Assembly (NCBI GenBank): GCA_002104895.1
Contig: MCFG01000292.1
Coordinates: 1-57,500 of the forward strand
DNA from: Anaeromyces robustus
Taxonomy: Eukaryota; Neocallimastigomycota; Neocallimastigomycetes; Neocallimastigales; Neocallimastigaceae
Direction of reading: 5' to 3'
Length of the DNA: 57,500 nt
Shown: positions 4,000 to 54,289 of the stretch, piece after piece
Position numbering within the stretch: the first letter of the stretch is position 1
Layout: the number at the start of each line of letters is the position of its first letter
Notes under the pieces: generated by a model
Told to the model about the DNA's origin: nothing
What the model saw: the letters and a program-made list of their open reading frames with translations, nothing else
The model's database searches: none
Translations under genes and position numbers: made by a program

Positions 4000-4100
4000 G
4001 TAATAATAATAAATAATAATGTTAATAATAAATAGTAATAATAGTAATAATAAATAGTAATAATAATAATAATAAATAGTAATAATAATAATAATAATAA

Positions 4101-4137
<37 letters not shown>

Positions 4138-4355
4138 GTAATAATAATAAATAATAATAAGAATAAGAATAAGAATAAGAATAAAAATAAGAATAAAAAT
4201 AAGAATAATAATGACCATATTAATAATAATAATAATAATAATATTCATAATAAATCACCTGAATCACCATCAATTAATAAAAGTATAATTGGTAGTGACA
4301 GTAATAATTTTCATCCTTAAAATATAAGTCAGGGTAGAAGTTGTTATATTTAACC
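3660..4355 (+). repeat. Hairpin plus Asn-rich relic block, copy 2, with AAT microsatellite
   Basis: Direct repeat of 465-957. It begins with a TATAT/ATTAT pentamer run (3666-3715). An 11-bp hairpin at 3731-3756 follows, where both arms match copy 1 but the loop is GTGA. The AAT tract is expanded to about 280 bp (3955-4230). The end frame reads SPESPSINKSIIGSDSNNFHP and then a stop. The 108-aa poly-Ile/Tyr frame on the other strand is this microsatellite, not a gene. Confidence 0.65.
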
Positions 4356-4415
4356 GACTTATATATATTTTTTAGTTTTTTTAAATTATTTAAATTTTTA
4401 CTATTATCATCTTTA

Positions 4416-4601
4416 TTATAACAATTTTTTATAAAATAAAATTATGTCATTTGTGAATAATTTTAATCTGTCCTTTTTTCTTTTTTCTTTTTTTTTTAAT
4501 TCAACAATTTCAAGTATTTGTAATTCTATTATAAATTTGGGATGTTCGCAATATTTATCAATAGTTGAACAAAACTTGGATCTATTAAGTTTAATACTAC
4601 T
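4416..4601 (-). pseudogene. Short Cys-containing coding relic
   Basis: The minus strand is open for 61 codons, ending at TAA (4416-4418). It reads SKFCSTIDKYCEHPKFIIEL and then a Lys-rich tail. Composition is protein-like (two Cys, charged tail) and unlike the low-complexity frames nearby. There is no ATG and a stop lies just upstream, so it is either a last exon or a relic. No family is recognised. Confidence 0.35.
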
Positions 4602-4619
4602 TTAATACGTTAGATAAGA

Positions 4620-6068
4620 TTTAAGATTTTAAAATTTTTCATTTACATATTTGATATGTTCATTATATTTTATTCATTGACTATTCTTTTATTATATTTT
4701 ATTATATTTTAAATTTATAAATAATTTTGTCTATTTATAAATTGTAAAAAAATATTTTTTTTTTTGAAAATGTTCTTTTTTATGACTCATACAAAATATA
4801 ATAAATTTAATTTATTATTACCAACCAATAAAACTAATAGATTTATATATAATAATATATTACAAGTTCATTTCTATTTAAATTCCTAATATATAAAAAT
4901 TTAATTCTTTTCTGTCAATTTCAATTTCAATTTTTCCTTTTAGAATATTTTCCTTTAAAATAATTTAATTTAATTTAAATTAATTTAAAATAAATTAAAT
5001 ATTTTTGTTACACTATTTAACAAATATTTTATACTTTCTTTTTAGGATATATTCATACTTACATACATATAATGTATTTTGTATTTTGTATTATTTCTTT
5101 TAAAGTGAACATCATCAATAAACGTCATATATAAACATAATAAAAAAACATAATAAATAAATAAATAAATAAATAACATAACATATTAATTATAATTATA
5201 ATTTAGTATTTAATATTTAGTATTTAATATTTAATATTTATTAAAAAGAAATTAATATGATTGTATAATTATTAGAATATATTAGAATATATATTTATTT
5301 ATACATATTTAAATATTAAAATCAAGTGATTATAAAAAAAAAAATAAAAGTAAAGTCAAACATCATTAATTAAAAAAAAAAATTCTTTTTTTAATAAATT
5401 TTTATATATTAAAAAATAAAAAATAAAGATTTGTGAAACCACAAATAGAAAAACACACAATTACTAAAAAAGGTTTTATTTTTTAAAAAAAAAATAGGGA
5501 AAATATTGAAAATTATTAAAAAATATGATATATTTATATATATATATTGAATATATTGAATTGTATTTATTTAAAAAAAAAAATATTATAAAATAAGTAA
5601 AATAATAAAATATATATATAAGCATGTAAAGAATAAAAATAAAAGTAAAAATAAAAAAAAAAAAAAATAAAAATAAAGCAACTAAAATTAAAGGAAAAAT
5701 AAAGGAAAACAAATAAAAATAAAAATAAAAATAAAATAAAAACAAAATTAAAAAATTAAAAAAAAAAAAAACAAAATAAAAATAAAAACATAATAAAAAA
5801 AATAAAAAAAAAAAACATAATAAAAATAAAAAAAAAAAAAAAAAACAATAAAAATAAAAATAAAACAACACAAAATTAAAACAAAACAAAATTAAACCAA
5901 AACAAATAAAAATAAAAATAAAAATAAGATAATACAAATTATAATAAAACAAAACAAATAAAAATAAAAGTAAAATAAAAATAAAATAAAAACAGTAAAT
6001 AAATAAATAAATAAATAAATAAATATATAAATAATATTTAATTATATAATTAAAAAAATATATATAAA
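4620..6068. other. Gene-free A/T-rich spacer and 5' region of the membrane-protein gene
   Basis: No protein-like frame was found. The last 500 bases before the ATG at 6069 are A-rich on the plus strand (AAATA and AAAATA runs). This is the usual leader composition upstream of genes in this window. The 213-aa Phe/Tyr-rich frame on the opposite strand is the complement of these runs. Confidence 0.6.
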
Positions 6069-6891
6069 ATGAATTTAAATGTTGAGAAGCATTCAAAGAA
6101 TGTATTAATTCATTCATTTTTTATGATTGTAAGTAATATAATATAATATAATATAATATAATATAATATTATATAATATAATAAAATAATAAAATAAAAT
6201 AAAATAAAATAAAATAAAATAATGAAAATGTAATTAATATCTTATAAATATTTAATATTTTAATAGATATTGTATATATCATTTGTAATTTTAGCCAGTT
6301 ATTATGGTAGTTTACCATTAATTTCACTGGGTTATATTCAGGGTTTTTCATTAGTAAGAGTTGGATTTCTTGTTATATTTATCATTGGTATTTTGAAAGT
6401 AAGTTAAAAAAAAAAAAAAAAAAAAAAAAACTTTTAAAAATAATATATATTAATTATTATATACTTTTATAAATAAATGAGTAAATAAATAAAAATTAAT
6501 AATTTTTTTTTTATAATTCAATATTTATAGAGGAATGAAAATCTTGTAGATGGTATCAAAGAATTTATTACATTGGAAAAATATGAAACTTTCAATTATT
6601 CTATTGTAATATTGTGTTCCATCAATTTTTTATCCGTTTGGAAAGAAGAATCTCTTAATAAATATAAAAAGATTAATAATCATAGATTTGATAATTATTC
6701 CGACGAAGAATTAAAGAAAAAATTAATATTTGGTTCATGTATAATGCTTATTGCTGGAATTATTAAATTAAAACTTATGGTAATTTATTTAATTTTTTTT
6801 TTTTTTTTTTTTTTTTTTTGAATGATGATTTAAATAATATTAATTTATAATTTTTCATTTTTTCTAATTTTTTAAAAAATTTTTATATAAT

Positions 6892-6984
<93 letters not shown>

Positions 6985-7117
6985 CATTATTAAAATTACT
7001 ATAATTAATTCAATGATATAGAAAAATTACACTACTTATTTAAAAAAAAGTTTAAAGAATATTTCATTAAAAGATATTAAAAATGATTCAGATGTTAAAA
7101 ATAAAAAAGAATTATAA
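6069..7117 (+). CDS. Small multi-pass membrane protein, four exons (178 aa)
   Basis: Exons joined by hand: 6069-6128, 6267-6398, 6531-6779, 7022-7117. The lengths are 60, 132, 249 and 96 nt, so all junctions are phase 0. Donors are GTAAGT, GTAAGT and GTAATT; acceptors end in ATAG. Exon 2 gives ILYISFVILASYYGSLPL followed by a second hydrophobic stretch around FLVIFIIGILK. Exon 3 adds FNYSIVILCSINFL and IFGSCIMLIAGII, making about four membrane segments. A charged loop (KEESLNKYKKINNHRFDNY) lies between segments 3 and 4, and the tail is Lys-rich. I recognise no family; a four-span scaffold or transporter-like protein is possible. The good exon phase makes the model convincing, but the start ATG is the least certain part. 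Confidence 0.75.
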
Positions 7118-8079
7118 AAATAATTTCTTAGCATCAAAATTTATTATTAGCCTAATATTTTATATTTATTATTATTTATAAATATAAACTTCATTATTGG
7201 TAAAAAATGAAATGAATAATAATTTAAAGGAAGAAATACTAAATTTTATATTAATATTTTTAACAATATTTGGATATCTTAATATTGGTAAATTAATTAA
7301 ATAATTTTATAAATTATATATATAATAATTATTTTGTATATATATATAAATATTATTTTTAACATAAAAAAATATAAATTTATAATTAATAATATTAATT
7401 TATATAATTTTATATATATATATATATATTATTTATTATTTATTATTTATTATTTATTCATTATTCATTATTCATTATTCATTATTAATTCAGTGATATT
7501 ATATATTAGTTTTTCCTTCTTTTCTTTGATAAATATACAAAAATTATTGTAAAAAATAAAATAAAATAAAATAAAATAAAATAAAATAAAATAAAATAAA
7601 ATAAAATAAAATAAAATAAAATAAAATAAAATAAAATAAAATAAAATAAAATAAAATAAAATAAAAGTAAAATTAAAACTTTGATTTTCAGTTTTTTCTT
7701 TATAATGCTTTTACGTATTATAAAGAAAAACTGAATATTATAATAGTAAAAATTTTAATAATAATAAAAAAATTGAATATAAAATAAAAAACCATAAAGG
7801 AAAAATATATTTAATATAAAAATTTTTTCTTCTTATATCATTTCTGTAATATTTTATTTATTATGTGTAAACCTGTTGTTGGGTAAATAACAATATTTTT
7901 TTATTTATTATTATTATTAATAATAATAAATAATTTCAATAAGTAATTTTAAGTAAAATCTTTTTAAAAGAAATTATGTTTTATTGAAAATAAAAAAATA
8001 ATGAAAGTCTTAATTGGTAATTGTAATATTCTATATTATTTATAAATAAAAAATATATAATAAAATAAAAACCACGAAG

Positions 8080-8116
<37 letters not shown>

Positions 8117-9602
8117 AAATAATTTTTGTCATGGAAATTTTAAGTCTATTTATTACTTTTTTTACAGAAAAATAGTTTCATTTGTAAAAAAAAAAAAAAA
8201 CCTGTTAAAAGCTCTAGAAACTTTATATTGTATTAAAATAAAATGAAATTTGTAGTAAAATATATACATATATAATTATAAGATAATAATAAAAATAATT
8301 TTAAGAAAATATTGGAATTTAATTGATAAAAAAAAATTTTAGTAATTCCTAAAACTATTGTAAGTAATAACTAGAATATATTAATATATAGTTTTTTTTA
8401 AAATAAGAATATGTTTTTTAATAAAAATTTGAAATGAGTGTGAATCTAACCCAGAAAGTATAGTTCAATTATCGTATAAAAAAATGTAAAAAAAAAAATA
8501 AATAAATACATATATACATAAAGACTAAAATATATTTAGATAATACAAAAAAATAAAAATATATATATCTATTTTAATTAATATTTTTCTTAACTTATCT
8601 ACAAAATATAAAAATTATAAAAATTATATATTTTAAAAAAGAGTTAATATTTAAAAGTACATTTTTATTTTAAAAAAAAAATAATAATAATTGATGAAGA
8701 TACATTTATTAAACGAAATATTGAAAAATTATAATGAACCAATTGAAGATAGAGAAATTAATTAATTAATTAATGCAAAAAGAAATAATTGAACAATTAC
8801 AATTATATATGTTTTTTAAATGAATGAATGAATGAATGAAAATGAAATTAAAAGTAAAAGACAACATTAAAATTAGATAATAAAAAAAAGAAAAAAAAGA
8901 AAAAAAAGAATATATGAATTAATTAAATTTGAAAATAAATATGAAAATAATTAAAACAATTTAAAAAAAAATAAAAAGTTAAAATATAAATAAATATTAA
9001 TATTATTATTATTTTTTTTTTTTTTTTTTGGCAAAAAATCAAATATTAAATATTATTAATATAAATTAATTAATTTTATTAAGATTTATTTGTATTTTAA
9101 TAATATAAATAATAATAAAAAAATTAAAAATATTATAATTTAAAATTTTTAAAAAAAAAAAATTATATTATTATAATAATATATTAAAAAAAAAAAAAAA
9201 AAAAACATTCTTTTCTTCTTTTTTAATATATCTATTAGACCGCTAATAATTTTTTATTTTATTTAGGGTTTATGATAAAAAATTTATTTTCGTTTTTGTT
9301 GGTTATTGATATTACAAATATATTTATTTGTGTAACATAAATTTATTAACAAAAAAAAAAAAAAAAAGAATGAACTAGCTTCTTTTTGAAAAGAAAAAGA
9401 AAAAAAAATATATATATATATATAACAGGATATTTCCTATAATTTTTCTTTTTTTTTTAAAAAAACAAAACAAAACAAAAACAAAAACGAAAATAAATAT
9501 AATACAAATAATTATATAAAATAATTATATATAAAAAGAAGAAAAAAAATTTATATATATATATATATTTTTTTTTAATTTTAAATTATAATAATAAACA
9601 AA
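7118..9602. other. Intergenic, low complexity, with pentamer run and hairpin
   Basis: Contains an AAAAT pentanucleotide run (7552-7665). Immediately after it is an inverted repeat at 7687-7735 (20-nt and 19-nt arms, 10-nt loop GCTTTTACGT). The rest is poly-A/poly-T and TTA runs. A short frame near 7210-7300 (MNNNLKEEILNFIL...) may be a relic of another membrane protein but is not supported. The 300 bases before 9603 are poly-A/poly-T and probably hold the promoter of the next gene. Confidence 0.6.
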
Positions 9603-31254: not shown

Positions 31255-32616
31255 ATGAATAATTTGACATTATTTCTTTTAGGACTGGGATTAGTTAAAG
31301 TATCCTGTGAAAACTGTTTTTCTATTAAATTTGGATATCCATGTTGTAATGGATGTGATGTCATATACGTGGATGAAGATGGTAAATGGAGTGTAGAAAA
31401 TGATAGCTGGTGTGGTTTAATGGACAGTTGTGAAAATGGTGGAATAGAGGATGAAGATATTATTGATGACATTTTTGTTAATAATAATAATACCGATACT
31501 TCTAAAAAAGATTTTGAATTTTTATTCTTAAAATTAGAAAATCATAAAGAAAATATGTTATATAGTCCATTATCCATAGAATATGCTTTAAATATGTTAC
31601 AAGAAGGTGCCGATGGAAATACTTATGATGAAATAAATAAAATTATAGGAAATGACGAACTTCCTAAATACACCAATATTGAAAATAATTTATCCTTAGC
31701 TAATGGTGTATTTATAAAGGATACATTCTATGAAAATGTTAAAACTGATTATATCAATACATTAAAAGAAAAATTTGATTCCGAAGTTATCCAAGATCCA
31801 TTTGAAAGTGCTGAAAATGTTAATCATTGGATTGAAGATAAAACTTTAGGTATTATTAAAAATGTTGTTAATGATGATGCCGTTAGAAGTCCAGCTATGG
31901 CTATGCTTTTAATTAATGCTCTTGCTATGGATATGGATTGGAAAATCTTATTTGATAGTTATGATACTAATGAAGAAAACTTTTATATGGAAAATGGTCA
32001 AAGAATTCAAGTATCTATGATGAATAAAAAAGAAATTAAAAGTGATGTCGTTTCCTATTATAAAAGTAATAAAGTCAAAGCTGTTACTATGGAATTTGAA
32101 GAATATAATGGAACAGAATTAGAATTTTTAGCCCTTATGCCTAATGAAGATTTAAGTAGTTTTGTTGAAAATATTACATTAGAACAAATTCAAAAATTAG
32201 ATCAAAAACTTATTCCTTCCTCTGAAACTTCTAATGGAGTTAATTTAAAAATACCAAAATTCAAATTTAGTTATGATTTAGCTTTAAAAAAGAATTTAAT
32301 GGATTTAGGAATCAATGATGCTTTTGATGAATTAAAAGCTAACTTTACAAAAATCTCTGATCCTTATTCTTCTGGAATGAATTTATTTGTTTCCGATGCT
32401 CTTCATAAAGCAGATATTGAATTTACCGAAAAGGGAGTAAAAGCAGCCGCAGTAACTGTAGCTTTAACTTATGCTACTTCATTTAGACCAAAAAAGGGTG
32501 ATCCTATTGAAATAGTTATAGATAAACCATTTATGTTTATTATAAGAGATAAAAATACCAAAGATATATGGTTTACAGGAACTGTCTATGAACCAGAATT
32601 ATGGGGAAACAATTAA
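31255..32616 (+). CDS. Cellulosomal serpin (celpin-like) with N-terminal fungal dockerin (453 aa)
   Basis: Residues 1-18 are a signal peptide ([18 protein letters not shown]). Residues 19-59 match the fungal (CBM10-like) dockerin: [11 protein letters not shown], then [19 protein letters not shown], with about seven cysteines in the motif region. Neocallimastigomycete dockerins anchor enzymes to the cellulosome. After an acidic Asn-rich linker (about 60-80) a full serpin domain follows. Visible landmarks are [20 protein letters not shown], the [12 protein letters not shown] helix region, a C-terminal hinge [18 protein letters not shown] and the closing strand [20 protein letters not shown]. 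The hinge Ala run suits an inhibitory serpin that can insert its reactive loop, although the P14 position is Val rather than the usual Thr/Ser. P1 would fall near the YATS stretch; the target protease is inferred only. Probable role: protecting the cellulosome from rumen proteases. It is a single exon, as are most fungal cellulosome genes. Confidence 0.93.
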
Positions 32617-49140: not shown

Positions 49141-49259
49141 CCACTTCAAAAAAAGGGATGTGACCCATTTCACCAACTTAATATACAAAAATTTACACTT
49201 CTTAAAAAATACCCCCATATTAAAAATGTAATTATTTTATTTTAATAAATAATAAATAA

Positions 49260-49527
49260 TGTTAGAATATGACAAATAACATTGTGACAAATTTATATTA
49301 ATAATTTAGAAGATCATAGAAATATGTAATTAGTAATAGATTCATTATTTACACGTGTACATACATTATTCATTTATAATTATGTATTAAGCCACATTTG
49401 TAAAACATATAAATATACATAGATTTTCATTAATTAAACAGTAGTAATTTAATTACTCAAATAGTAACTTGTATTAATTCTAAATATCATAAATAAATAA
49501 AGTTGACATAAACCTTAATTTCTAATA
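49260..49527 (+). repeat. Left LTR (268 bp)
   Basis: Identical to 53799-54066. Begins TGTTAGAATATGACAAATAA; ends AACCTTAATTTCTAATA. The end dinucleotide is TA rather than the canonical CA, in both copies. Confidence 0.92.
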
Positions 49528-49539
49528 GATTAAGAGTCT
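49528..49539 (+). other. Candidate primer-binding site
   Basis: GATTAAGAGTCT directly follows the left LTR. Its complement AGACTCTTAATC has the form of the anticodon loop and adjoining stem of tRNA-Lys(CUU). Copia-group elements are known to prime from a tRNA 5' half cut in the anticodon loop, so this is plausible, but the tRNA of this organism is not in the window. Confidence 0.4.
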
Positions 49540-49624
49540 CAATTGACTCTCAAGGCAGGAGCATATAAAGTCAACGAAGCTAGGAGAAATCATAAGTTAC
49601 TCATTATGTCAATTTTAAAAGAAG

Positions 49625-49755
49625 AGAAAATTAAATTTTGAAAATTTTGAAATTAATTAAATTTTGAAAATCTTGAAATTAATTAAATTTTGAAAATTTT
49701 GAAATTTATTAAATTTTGAAAATTCTTTGAAATTAATCTAATTTTGAAAATTAGA
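49625..49755. repeat. Tandem repeat in the LTR element leader (about 34 bp, four units)
   Basis: AATTAAATTTTGAAAATTTT-GAAATTAATT is repeated about four times with small changes. Confidence 0.75.
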
Positions 49756-50422
49756 GATCTAAAATTTCAAAGTAGTTAACAATTAATGAAAAACAAAGAA
49801 AACGCGTAAATAAGATAATTAAGCCCCTAATATAAAATAAATCTATATAAATCCATATTATGATAAAAATTAAATGATGTAAAGTAGAATTTTGAAATCA
49901 CGTAATGTTATGAGAATAATGAACTTAAATTAAAGAAATAATTTCAAATGAATAAATAAATAATAGAGAAAGATATTTTATTTAGAGAAGAATTCAAAAT
50001 AAATATTTTGTAAAAATGAGATAAAGTATATATTTCAATTATGAAACACTTTTTCGTTTAAATGTTAAATTCCTAAATTTAATATAAACAAACAAAATAT
50101 TTTTAAAAGTTTAAAATTGAAATTAATTAACTTTAAATTCAAAAATAAACAAACAATTTAAACTTAGATAATAGAAAATTCATCATTTAAACGTTGAAAT
50201 AAACAATAATATTTAAGTTTTATAATTTATAATTAAACAAAATATTAGGAAGATTTCTTTTCGAATTCAAAACAAGTACTATATAAAATTAACTTAACTA
50301 ATTAAATATTATTCTTTACATGTTTGATGTTACTGATAAAATTTCACTATCATTTCAAATTCTTACACTAATTTTATATTCATTTATCTTGCTTCTGGAA
50401 AGGAAAATTAATACTATATAAA

Positions 50423-50905
50423 ATGCGTTTATTTAAAAACTGTCGTAAAAATGATAAGATATCATTATTAAATGATAAAATTAATGCTTTTGAAAATAAA
50501 AATGGTATTCTAGAAGAAAAATTTGAAAGCATTAAAAAGGAAAATATAGATTTAAAAAATAAAATTGAAACACTAGAAAAAGAATTATCAAATCAAAGGA
50601 AAATCATGATGACAATTCCTGATATTGACCGTGTTGTTGTTATTAAGGATAGTAATGTTAATAGAATGAATCCGAAAGGATTCATTGCACCTGAAAATGG
50701 TTGGATTTCATTTAGAGCCACATCTAATAACAACGGTAATGACAGAATAATACTTTATGTTAACGATAAGGAAATCGGAAATTTTAGCAATTGGACAAAT
50801 ACTCACGTTCACACACCATTCACTTGGCAACTTGGAAAAAATGATATATTTAAAGCTACTGGAGGAGTTTGGCATTATGCATTATTCTACCCATGCAAGC
50901 ATTAA
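50423..50905 (+). CDS. Coiled-coil protein with phage tail-fibre-like C-terminal domain (160 aa), cargo of the LTR element
   Basis: Residues 1-62 are a coiled coil (ISLLNDKINAFENKN, LKNKIETLEKELSNQRK). Residues about 70-160 form a compact beta-type domain: RMNPKGFIAPENGWISFRAT, then DRIILYVNDKEIGNF, WQLGKNDIFKATGG and HYALFYPCKH. The order 'apenGwi..r......irLyvN.k.ig........PvkkGD.......w.lyFyPck' resembles C-terminal domains of bacteriophage tail fibres and related bacterial surface proteins; this is recognition by eye, not a search result. It has no zinc knuckle, protease or polymerase motif, so it is neither gag nor pol. A TATA-like ACTATATAAA lies just before the ATG. Possible roles: a captured rumen-bacterial gene, or a gag-like particle protein that trimerises through the coiled coil. 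Confidence 0.8.
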   Translation: MRLFKNCRKNDKISLLNDKINAFENKNGILEEKFESIKKENIDLKNKIETLEKELSNQRKIMMTIPDIDRVVVIKDSNVNRMNPKGFIAPENGWISFRATSNNNGNDRIILYVNDKEIGNFSNWTNTHVHTPFTWQLGKNDIFKATGGVWHYALFYPCKH

Positions 50906-53798
50906 ATATCACCTTTAAATTTACTTATTTAATATATAATATATTGAGTTATCATTACGTTAACTTAAAATACTAATTTGAAGTATATTTATATTAAATC
51001 ATAAATTTTGCATCACATTCTAATCTTACTTTTTACACTTTTACTTTAAATATGTCACAACACACTTATATATTTACTATTTCTAAAAAAGAGAAAATAT
51101 TTTCTACTTCTTTTGTCTTAACATTATATGGATAAAAACAAAATAAATATTTAATTCCCTTAATCTTATATAAACATTTGAAAATGTATAACACTAAAAA
51201 TATGTCTATATTAAATAAAAAAAACTCAAACTACTTCTATAAGTAATACATTATAATATTAATCAAATATTCAAATTCAATCATACAGTTATTGCTATAC
51301 TATAAAGCATCAGTTAGTGTTAAACTGTAAAAACACCAGTCATCCCTAATTTATAGAGAAAGGCAACACTTACTAACAAACTTAATAACATTAGTTATGT
51401 TTAATCTGTTTAAAAACATTAAAACTGTATCATTCAAATTTATTACAATATGGTTACTACTTTGACAACAAAAGTGTGAGGTTAATACTTATCCTACAAA
51501 AGTACATAAGGCTAATATTTTACCTACAAAAGAGATGATATAATGGTTTCCTCTTATCCACAAAGAGTGACATTTGGCTATTAACAACAAATGTATACAC
51601 AATAATAGTTATTGCTAATCTACAAAGCAAGTATTCAAAAATTATATACAACATCGAATACACAATAATAGTTATTGCTAATCTACAAAGCAAGCATTCA
51701 AAAATTATATACAACATCGAATACACAATAAAAGTTATTGCTTATCTACAAAGCAAGTATTCGAGGAGGAAGTCTATAATATAAATAACATATTTTACAA
51801 TATATTAAATATTTTATAAATAATACGATGTAAAACCAAAATGTAAACTTAGGGTTGTCACATTACAGATGACGTGAAACCTTCGCGGCTATCCTTAGAG
51901 CTGTAACAAAATAGACGTAAAACAATATGTAAACCTTGGAATTACCACATAAAATTAGGTAATATTAATCCCAAGAGTTGTCGATACAATCTAGCTATAC
52001 AATTAAATAATCATAAATTTAATCAACACATTATATAATTTGCTAAAAATTGGATGATATTCATCCATCCGTAATACAAAATTTTTTAAAACATTTAAGA
52101 CTCCTCATATTACTCATAATGATGATTTTTCATAGAAGAGGCATTATTTTTATAATTTCACAAACTTGATTATATTTAAACAAATTATTAACATAAGATT
52201 AAATATTATAAATTTATAAATTGCAATCACAAGGTTGATACTATGCCTATAAAAGAGAAAAGAATATTTGGTTTACTCTTACCAATATTTGGTTTACTCT
52301 TACCCTTAAAGAGATGATTTATATGGTTTCCATTTATTCAACAAAAGTATATTATTTTAATAATAAGTGATTGCAGAATGCTTCAATATTTAAAAGCATT
52401 ATATATATCCATTGAATATTGAAATATATTTGATAAACGTTTAATTTTAAAATAAACACAATGAAATTACATATACATTATTAAAGATGTGCTATATCCA
52501 TCTTTTCAAATTTTAACAATTTTAAACTATATATTATAATGAAAATCCAAAATTCATTCATAATTAAATATTTGGATTTTAGGGAGAAGTGAGATAGATA
52601 TTAATAGGAATATAAAAATTGATATTTGTTAACGAACTTGTAAAAATGTTTATGAATAACATTCTGCTTATTAATAATAAACGACACACGAAATATAATC
52701 TTAAAAGAAAGTATATAAATGATAATTTTAAAATGAGAGAAAAGAAAAAGAAAATATGAAAATAATAAAATTATTTTATTCATTCTCTGAAAACTCGTAA
52801 TACATACAAAAAGAAATTAAATTATAATTTCACAAGACAAAGGAACTTTGAAGTAATATTCTATAATTATTCTTGATTTAATGAAAGAAATTATATTCAT
52901 ATTTAATAAAAATGAAGATTTAAAACTTAATTTAAACATACAATATTATTCATTCACGATACTTATCTATGAATGAAGATTTAAGCATTTCGTTTAAATA
53001 CATATCCATTCAATATTAATTGAATGATGAAATGTCAAAGAACTATTTTAAATAACGTAGTTTTAAGGGGAAATATAACACAATTATTAATATATTTAAG
53101 ATAATTTATCTAAATAAACACTTAAATAAAATTAGAATAAATAACATTAAATCTTAATAATAGAAAAGAAAATTAAAATAAAATAAATATTTTCTAATTA
53201 TTTAAATATTTGAATAGAATAGCTAAATACAAAGTAATTGATATGTTCTTCCACATATTAACAATGAATACACCAAAATTAACAGATTATTCTATAATAG
53301 CTAGAATAACATTAATTACTTAATTTACAAAACATAGTTTTAATAATAAAAATGAATGTGAGACCTAAAAGGCAATTCATAATAAATACAAATAAGTGAT
53401 ATAAAATCCAAGTAGGTATTCACTAAAGATGGTATAATGTTATCCTTCAAGAGAGAAAGGTTTCCATCATAAATGGTATAATTAACCATAATATAAATGA
53501 TGACAAAGATTCATCATATAATAAATTTTAGGTGTAATATTACTCAAGAATATTAATTTCAGGGGGAACAATATAAATTCTTAAAATATTTACTAAATTA
53601 TTTAAATAGTTTTATATAAAAGAAATTATTCATTATTTTATTTGAAATTCATGTATTAATAGTATAGAAAATTAATGTAAATTTAATTAGAATAACTTAA
53701 ATGATTAAAATACGAAATAGTAATAGTGATAAAATTTAATTCACATATTCACCGACAAACCAATTTATTCTGAAAGAATAACTAGATTTGAGGGGGAA
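50906..53798. other. Non-coding interior of the LTR element
   Basis: No frame longer than about 60 codons with protein-like content. Contains a 63-bp tandem repeat (51595-51763, 2.7 units), a direct repeat of ATATTTGGTTTACTCTTACC (about 52269-52310), and scattered AAAGAGATGAT...ATGGTTTCC motifs (51528 and 52310). The repeated motifs might be structural or packaging RNA; this is speculative. The polypurine tract closes the region. Confidence 0.6.
51595..51763. repeat. 63-bp tandem repeat, 2.7 units
   Basis: Units start with ATACACAATAATAGTTATTG at 51595, 51658 and 51721; units 1 and 2 differ by one base. The 68-aa minus-strand frame across it is a shadow. Confidence 0.85.
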
Positions 53799-54066
53799 TG
53801 TTAGAATATGACAAATAACATTGTGACAAATTTATATTAATAATTTAGAAGATCATAGAAATATGTAATTAGTAATAGATTCATTATTTACACGTGTACA
53901 TACATTATTCATTTATAATTATGTATTAAGCCACATTTGTAAAACATATAAATATACATAGATTTTCATTAATTAAACAGTAGTAATTTAATTACTCAAA
54001 TAGTAACTTGTATTAATTCTAAATATCATAAATAAATAAAGTTGACATAAACCTTAATTTCTAATA
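53799..54066 (+). repeat. Right LTR (268 bp)
   Basis: Identical to the left LTR. Preceded by the polypurine tract GAGGGGGAA. Confidence 0.92.
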
Positions 54067-54289
54067 AATAATAAATAATAAATAAAAAAATAAATAAAAT
54101 AATGTATACATTTTTGTTTAGCCACAAAAAAACGTGACCTGGTGAAATGGGAAACCCCCCCAAAAAAAAAGTCATATAAGGAATAGGATTTCTAGAAAAA
54201 TTTTTATTAAACATATTAAATACATTTATATTTATATTTATATAAGAATATTTATATAAATAATATAAAAAAAAAGAATAATTAAGTAA

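Follow-up and report, generated by a model that had tools for sequence, protein, structure and literature searches.

A young non-autonomous LTR retrotransposon of copia type in Anaeromyces robustus, probably carrying a cellular-type open reading frame in place of gag-pol

The DNA considered here (the window) is a stretch of 57,500 nucleotides from the gut fungus Anaeromyces robustus, corresponding to positions 1-57,500 of the 88,446-base contig MCFG01000292.1 (C215 below); all genome-wide searches refer to the 70.2-Mb assembly of this species. Near its right end, at 49260-54066, the window harbors a 4807-bp element bounded by long terminal repeats (LTRs). It is probably a recently inserted, non-autonomous copia-type LTR retrotransposon of the large retrotransposon derivative (LARD) kind, which carries one cellular-type open reading frame (ORF) instead of gag-pol and belongs to a lineage with varied cargo. 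The element has the anatomy of an LTR retrotransposon and shares a long 3′ noncoding scaffold with other loci of the genome. Some of these loci have a different sense ORF, and the primer-binding site (PBS) and the junction between the polypurine tract (PPT) and the 3′ LTR are common to the element and to intact pol-bearing copia elements.

Direct LTRs starting with TG, a PBS, a PPT, and a short target-site duplication, i.e., the features by which LTR retrotransposons are recognized, were all found in the element (Table 1). The two LTRs are identical, and their ends are TG...TA rather than TG...CA. No ORF in the 4271-bp internal region is longer than the 160-aa one; just two others between the LTRs, both antisense, reach 60 aa (68 and 60 aa), and a genome search for the copia reverse transcriptase domain RVT_2 gave zero matches within the element. 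The AATAA duplication is weak evidence when taken alone, as the flank is an AAT-rich tract. The insertion is nevertheless real, because contig C94 bears an element-free paralogue of the flanking repeat, which resembles a miniature inverted-repeat transposable element (MITE) with ends GTGACCCATTTC.CC and GG.GAAATGGG, and thus represents a paralogous empty site. LARDs have an internal region of some kilobases, and the element agrees with this structure in having LTRs around a several-kilobase interior from which retroelement genes are absent; its assignment to the terminal-repeat retrotransposons in miniature (TRIMs) was rejected, the internal region being too long. A preliminary description of this DNA, made from the sequence alone, had listed identical 268-bp LTRs, a PPT, a 5-bp flanking match, an interior free of gag and pol, and one 160-aa ORF, and had proposed a recent, non-autonomous insertion. 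The anatomy is confirmed on the sequence, and the proposal agrees with the identity of the LTRs, the interior lacking gag and pol, and the empty-site paralogue in C94.

The copia affiliation follows from the signals at the two ends of the internal region. The PBS is the complement of TGAGACTCTTAATC, which can be read as the 5′ side of an anticodon arm together with its loop, with CTT as the anticodon. The matching primer would apparently be a half-molecule of tRNA-Lys(CTT), and in this respect the element would differ from Drosophila copia, for which the primer is the initiator tRNA-Met. The motif AATAGATTAAGAGTCTCA, with at most two mismatches allowed, has 125 matches in the genome versus 2 for the reversed control. 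Among the 100 of these 125 sites that were listed, on which all distances from the PBS to RVT_2 and to the PPT are based, 29 are followed by RVT_2 on the same strand at a distance of 1.5-7 kb, versus 4 with a match on the wrong side (either strand). RVT_2 itself has 103 matches in the genome, several of them pieces of one copy, and 0 in 14 control genomes. The PPT-LTR junction pattern was found 49 times, versus 0 for the reversed control, with 8 of the 49 matches located on the palindromic contig C738. Moreover, C179, C277, C500, and C13 have copia frames that are open over 1553-1576 aa and are bounded by a PBS whose 14-base core is exact and a PPT-LTR junction with one or two mismatches. Because the PBS and the PPT-LTR junction are common to these pol-bearing copies, the cis signals of the element are those of the resident copia elements, which bears out the copia-type assignment implied in the preliminary description. 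Judged by its cis signals, the element therefore belongs with Ty1/copia, as both the PBS and the junction are those of RVT_2 elements. Ty1/copia elements encode Gag and Pol, the latter in the order protease, integrase, reverse transcriptase, and RNase H, whereas the interior of the element is free of RVT_2 and has no Gag or Pol ORF; it is for this reason that we call it copia-type and non-autonomous, not copia proper.

Two further observations concern the same signals. A TRIM-like class, with the PPT junction 846-1252 bp downstream of the PBS, accounts for 15 of the 100 listed sites and is present on C1, C13, C54, C60, C79, C86, C113, C131, C168, C257, C337, C457, C584, and C667. The region C738:1-10000 is largely palindromic, its inverted arms (3475 and 3040 nt) being 100% identical, and is perhaps an assembly artefact.

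The greater part of the interior downstream of the ORF is a noncoding scaffold, blocks of which recur on nine other contigs. When used as a blastn query (50906-53795), it gave 22 matches distributed over all seven family loci that were supplied, while the reversed query gave 0 and 20 shuffled queries gave 2. Outside the family, 23 loci yielded 1 match to the real query and 6 to the 20 shuffles. Since the family loci had been preselected by scaffold or PBS matches, this control speaks for specificity and not for discovery. Two pairs of contigs are close to each other: C435 matches C310 at 99.7% over 3.1 kb, and the scaffold gave equal match values with C652 and C738. A 22-base scaffold repeat pattern was found nine times in the genome, eight times in family loci, versus two for the control. 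The scaffold also contains a hairpin-like motif with the loop WAYC(N)ACAA, repeated at 51287-52355 of the window and in loci L079, L075, and L077. For two offsets, the 16 distinct instances allow 47 and 46 of 80 pairs to form, while shuffled copies allow 40.4 and 39.2 (p 0.050 and 0.012, respectively; the remaining two offsets gave 0.94 and 0.056), the loop pattern having been selected by inspecting the copies beforehand. A role of this motif as an RNA packaging or regulatory signal is possible. Matches at 49627-49753 and about 53070-53240, which occur on many contigs, were not accepted as kin, as they look like AT-rich tandem or low-complexity DNA. As a separate observation, C652 contains at 4099-9324 a Ty3-type gag ORF (5013-7088) between 703-bp direct repeats of 99.1% identity, which is apparently nested in a family member.

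What distinguishes this family is the variety of ORFs associated with the scaffold. The most informative relative is the unit on C254, which is complete, comprising both LTRs, a PBS with two mismatches, a leader with TTGAAAT-type repeats (also common to the C215 element and C225), one 349-aa ORF, the scaffold, and a PPT; a clear target duplication was not seen there. A gapped alignment of the C254 LTRs with hand-set ends has 144 aligned bases, of which 3 are mismatched, and 17 gap columns in its interior. An old age of this element was rejected, as an LTR identity of 84% holds for the ungapped comparison only and the gapped alignment shows it to be young. The C254 ORF is 56-59% identical over approximately residues 58-340 to two places on C2. 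At one of these, the identity reaches 63% across 153 aa, and the C2 gene continues with the domain Chitin_synth_2 (E 1.8e-71). The C254 cargo is thus a truncated N-terminus of a chitin synthase, ending about where the catalytic domain would start. For this sibling, a host homologue outside the element, as is required of a captured host gene, is therefore at hand. The broader idea of the preliminary description, namely that the coding content of the element had been replaced by another gene, is strengthened by such sibling units with other ORFs, and by the chitin synthase fragment in particular.

The remaining siblings are less complete. C225 has a 268-bp 5′ LTR with similar ends, an exact PBS, a 303-aa ORF, and the scaffold. 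Its ORF has relatives in the genome at C120 (27% identity, one stop), at C495 (42%, partial, two stops), and on C621, where two stretches match at 31-32% and the scaffold is also present. The C225 and C621 ORFs are PPPDE-like, with E-values of 1e-5 and 0.0027, respectively, both under the Pfam cut-off. On C94, an ORF encoding a coiled coil and an H-type lectin domain (H_lectin, E 1e-12) has its stop 32 nt upstream of the scaffold homology, and a 3′ LTR remnant can be recognized by eye.

A number of observations weigh against a cargo-varying copia-type lineage. Both LTRs, PBS, ORF, and PPT occur together in just C215 and C254. The 3′ end of C225 falls in a run of N; the LTR and PBS of C621 were looked for and not found, and the same applies to the 5′ LTR and PBS of C94. 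The C94 ORF has, in addition, two N-terminal paralogues (78-81%) 4-8 kb away, and an ordinary tandem gene next to the remnant of an element would explain it as well. In C435/C310, sense stop-to-stop frames do not exceed 66 codons in 3.1 of the 3.7 kb, and the degraded C286 has no sense frame of at least 60 codons in the 3.3 kb read. The ORF comparison leaves out the C652/C738 slots, and the kin list leaves out further weak scaffold matches, e.g., on C501, C523, and C159. Variation of the cargo is thus backed by two complete units, one nearly complete unit, and two doubtful ones, with the remaining units giving no support. As for the machinery, a search for tRNA genes was negative in the DNA that it covered, and tRNA-Lys as the primer is tentative. 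The best other near-full-length match to the LTR in the genome is 74% identical (on C286), and above this value only short pieces were found, up to 91% over 43 bases; a mobilizing partner particular to the C215 element was thus not found.

The 160-aa ORF of the C215 element exceeds chance and is coding-like. When the internal region was simulated 1000 times with a first-order Markov model, an ATG-initiated ORF of at least 160 aa never appeared in the six frames (maximum 145). The in-frame codon score of the ORF is +7.6, while 480-nt noncoding windows within the element average -54.4 and do not exceed -23.9. A single-sequence structure model predicts a helix at residues 8-61, with a mean pLDDT of 55 and low confidence for the remainder; the helix corresponds to the coiled coil of the preliminary description, and the beta domain named there is a low-confidence guess. 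In a protein search of the genome (E up to 0.001), the ORF is present as one copy, with one partial match at C127 (57% over residues 11-66). The host ORF at C127 encodes 156 aa with coiled-coil repeats and DUF5648 (E 3.7e-9), and an LTR element around it was not recognized. The similarity of the C215 ORF to a host gene outside the element is thus limited to the coiled coil. A coiled coil followed by a small C-terminal domain, as in the C127 ORF and the cargo ORF, seems to be a recurrent architecture in this genome. Many genomic copies of the ORF are ruled out by the same search, and the preliminary proposal that the element spreads a captured gene through the genome is not sustained.

The alternative that survives best is a plain LARD with a passenger, i.e., a piece of a host gene picked up by a single accident, playing no role and not under selection, the ORFs of the relatives being unrelated accidents; we rate its chance as only somewhat short of even. 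It is favored by the single copy of the C215 ORF, by the lack of a long sense frame in the parts of C435/C310 and C286 that were read, and by the lack of a catalytic domain in the C254 cargo. Intactness does not help to decide: that of the C215 ORF is uninformative on selection because identical LTRs leave too little time for decay, and that of the C254 ORF since its insertion is likewise uninformative because its LTRs are young, both of which suit a passenger. However, a comparison over 148 codons with the closest chitin synthase that was found gives a DNA difference of 25% for the C254 cargo (NG86 dN 0.26, dS 0.53), which is nonetheless open over 349 codons. Neutral simulations starting from the present C254 ORF seldom remained stop-free: at d = 0.05, 0.10, and 0.15, this was so in 61, 1, and 0 of 3000 runs, respectively. 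The C254 cargo may therefore have stayed open during earlier rounds; as the donor may be another gene that was not found, the argument is suggestive at most.

It is improbable that the ORF encodes an accessory protein of the retroelement itself (capsid or envelope-like) and is not a captured host gene. The coiled coil would suit such a protein, the C225 and C621 ORFs seem by eye to bear hydrophobic N- and C-terminal segments, and varied ORF3s are described for LTR elements of bdelloid rotifers (PMC5408684). Against this, the relatives of the element carry differing ORFs, that of C254 being a chitin synthase fragment, and the C215 ORF has no match to a gag family; a gag origin was rejected on the same family searches.

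Still less probable is the origin put forward in the preliminary description, where the ORF was regarded as a horizontally acquired phage or bacterial tail-fibre-like gene moved by the element. The order of its parts, a coiled coil and then a small C-terminal part, is compatible with such a protein, and in PHROGs, the whole ORF matches phrog_34468 (unknown function; E 0.0023, residues 37-120) and phrog_29002, a "minor tail protein" (E 0.026, residues 10-126, spanning the coiled coil). These scores are driven by the coil, because with residues 64-160 alone, phrog_34468 drops to 0.05, the best value obtained, and the tail family is no longer among the matches. The best whole-ORF matches in Pfam (Cnn_1N, 0.00022) and NCBIfam (0.0026) are likewise coil-driven and below the curated cut-offs. 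Residues 64-160 matched no Pfam family at E up to 5, nothing significant in the PDB (best 0.29), and no plasmid record. Four phage records, annotated as endolysin or lysin A, were matched without significance (best E 0.2), and none of 73 pattern stretches in GTDB genomes was confirmed. The same holds for the whole ORF and seven stretches in IMG/VR. A database of 5.8 billion proteins, searched by a method that depends on shared exact 5-residue words, returned the protein itself alone (42 and 2 candidates scored). The coil, in turn, matches the host gene at C127. The C-terminal part has a GC content of 34%, above that of seven window ORFs (21-27%), which would favor a foreign origin; since other domains of the genome reach 29-30%, this value says little about origin. 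A phage or bacterial tail-fibre origin is thus not supported by the sequence searches. Of the preliminary interpretation, the cargo-bearing non-autonomous copia-type element stands, while the tail-fibre origin and the genome-wide spread of the ORF fall, the ORF being single-copy and these searches having given no significant similarity to phage or bacterial proteins, i.e., what had been named beforehand as speaking against that specific claim. Finally, an ordinary fungal gene that merely happens to lie between the LTRs of a nested or recombined element, conceivable in a genome where repeats are common, is hardly credible, since the PBS and PPT adjoin the LTRs, the scaffold occupies much of the interior, and a MITE-like repeat of which an element-free copy exists is matched by the outer flanks.

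A cargo-bearing LARD of this kind would most likely be propagated as follows. The element would retain cis signals alone, namely the LTRs, the half-tRNA PBS, the leader, the 3′ noncoding scaffold, and the PPT. Its LTR would drive a full-length RNA, which the Gag-Pol of resident copia elements with the same PBS and a similar PPT-LTR junction would package and reverse-transcribe in trans; copia integrase would then insert the product, generating the 5-bp duplication. It is the common PBS and PPT that point to such a trans partner. The lineage would have acquired or exchanged its cargo more than once, in an ORF slot between the leader and the scaffold, possibly by template switching onto host mRNA. 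We infer trans-mobilization, template switching, and production of the cargo protein from this arrangement.

A more far-reaching version, in which a cargo-exchanging copia-type lineage of gut fungi undergoes repeated single-gene swaps, keeps its cargo open for long, so that old cargo sits in young insertions, and perhaps carries it from strain to strain, is a tentative suggestion that we consider rather unlikely. In the protein database, 18 public contigs have the C215 ORF protein, all with a single distinct sequence, while the protein of a neighboring window gene is found on 1 contig, its next relative (source jgi) being 73% identical. Such a difference could reflect mobility or transfer, or else strain sampling, if the strain of some assemblies does not have the other gene; with one control gene, the comparison is thin evidence. 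If the scaffold does exchange cargo, it would provide a retrotransposition route to duplicate, truncate, and reshuffle gut-fungal genes, and selection on retroelement cargo would become testable in sibling strains.

The capture of genes by LTR elements has been documented best in plants and animals. LARDs are described as LTR-bounded DNA without gag-pol that is moved in trans (PMC6431247); LTRs and a several-kilobase interior free of gag-pol are features of both, but the C215 element has an intact ORF inside, and the ORF varies among its scaffold relatives. For rice and sorghum, 672 and 1343 LTR-captured genes have been reported (Jiang and Ramachandran 2013, PMC3726574), again host genes between LTRs; here, in contrast, the host is a fungus, and different ORFs lie between the leader and one diverged noncoding scaffold. 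The LTR elements of bdelloid rotifers resemble this lineage in the modular gain of diverse extra ORFs (ORF3), but they retain gag and pol (PMC5408684), neither of which is present here. In Drosophila, copia uses a half-tRNA as its primer (PMC5371799), and the primer site of the element is likewise internal to a tRNA, ending here in the anticodon arm. Transduplicating transposons of Pyrenophora also amplify a host gene in a fungus (PMC3538342); these are, however, DNA transposons with inverted repeats and not LTR elements. In the excerpts of the open-licence PubMed Central literature that were considered, no fungus was found in which several different cargo genes are associated with a single non-autonomous LTR scaffold.

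Table 1. Features of the C215 element and its insertion site (window coordinates).
Feature	Position	Strand	Remarks
MITE-like repeat, left half (GTGACCCATTTCACC end)	49153..49259	.	90.7% to C94
Target-site duplication AATAA, left copy	49255..49259	.	
5′ LTR	49260..49527	+	268 bp, TGTTAGA...TCTAATA, identical to 3′ LTR
Primer-binding site GATTAAGAGTCTCA	49528..49541	+	abuts 5′ LTR
Leader, 26-bp tandem repeats (TTGAAATTAATTAAATTTTGAAAAT type)	49629..49751	+	
Cargo ORF, 160 aa	50423..50905	+	coiled coil at about residues 8-61 and C-terminal part at about residues 64-160, family not recognized
Coiled-coil coding stretch	50467..50580	+	82% DNA identity to host ORF at C127
3′ noncoding scaffold	51239..53798	+	blocks common to nine contigs: C225, C254, C94, C621, C652/C738, C435/C310, C286
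Scaffold start, repeats around loop motif WAYC(N)ACAA	51287..51783	+	
Polypurine tract GAGGGGGAA	53790..53798	+	abuts 3′ LTR
3′ LTR	53799..54066	+	268 bp, no difference from 5′ LTR
Target-site duplication AATAA, right copy	54067..54071	.	
MITE-like repeat, right half (GGTGAAATGGG end)	54067..54160	.	

Elsewhere in the window, at 31255-32616, there is a 453-aa ORF that looks serpin-like by eye.

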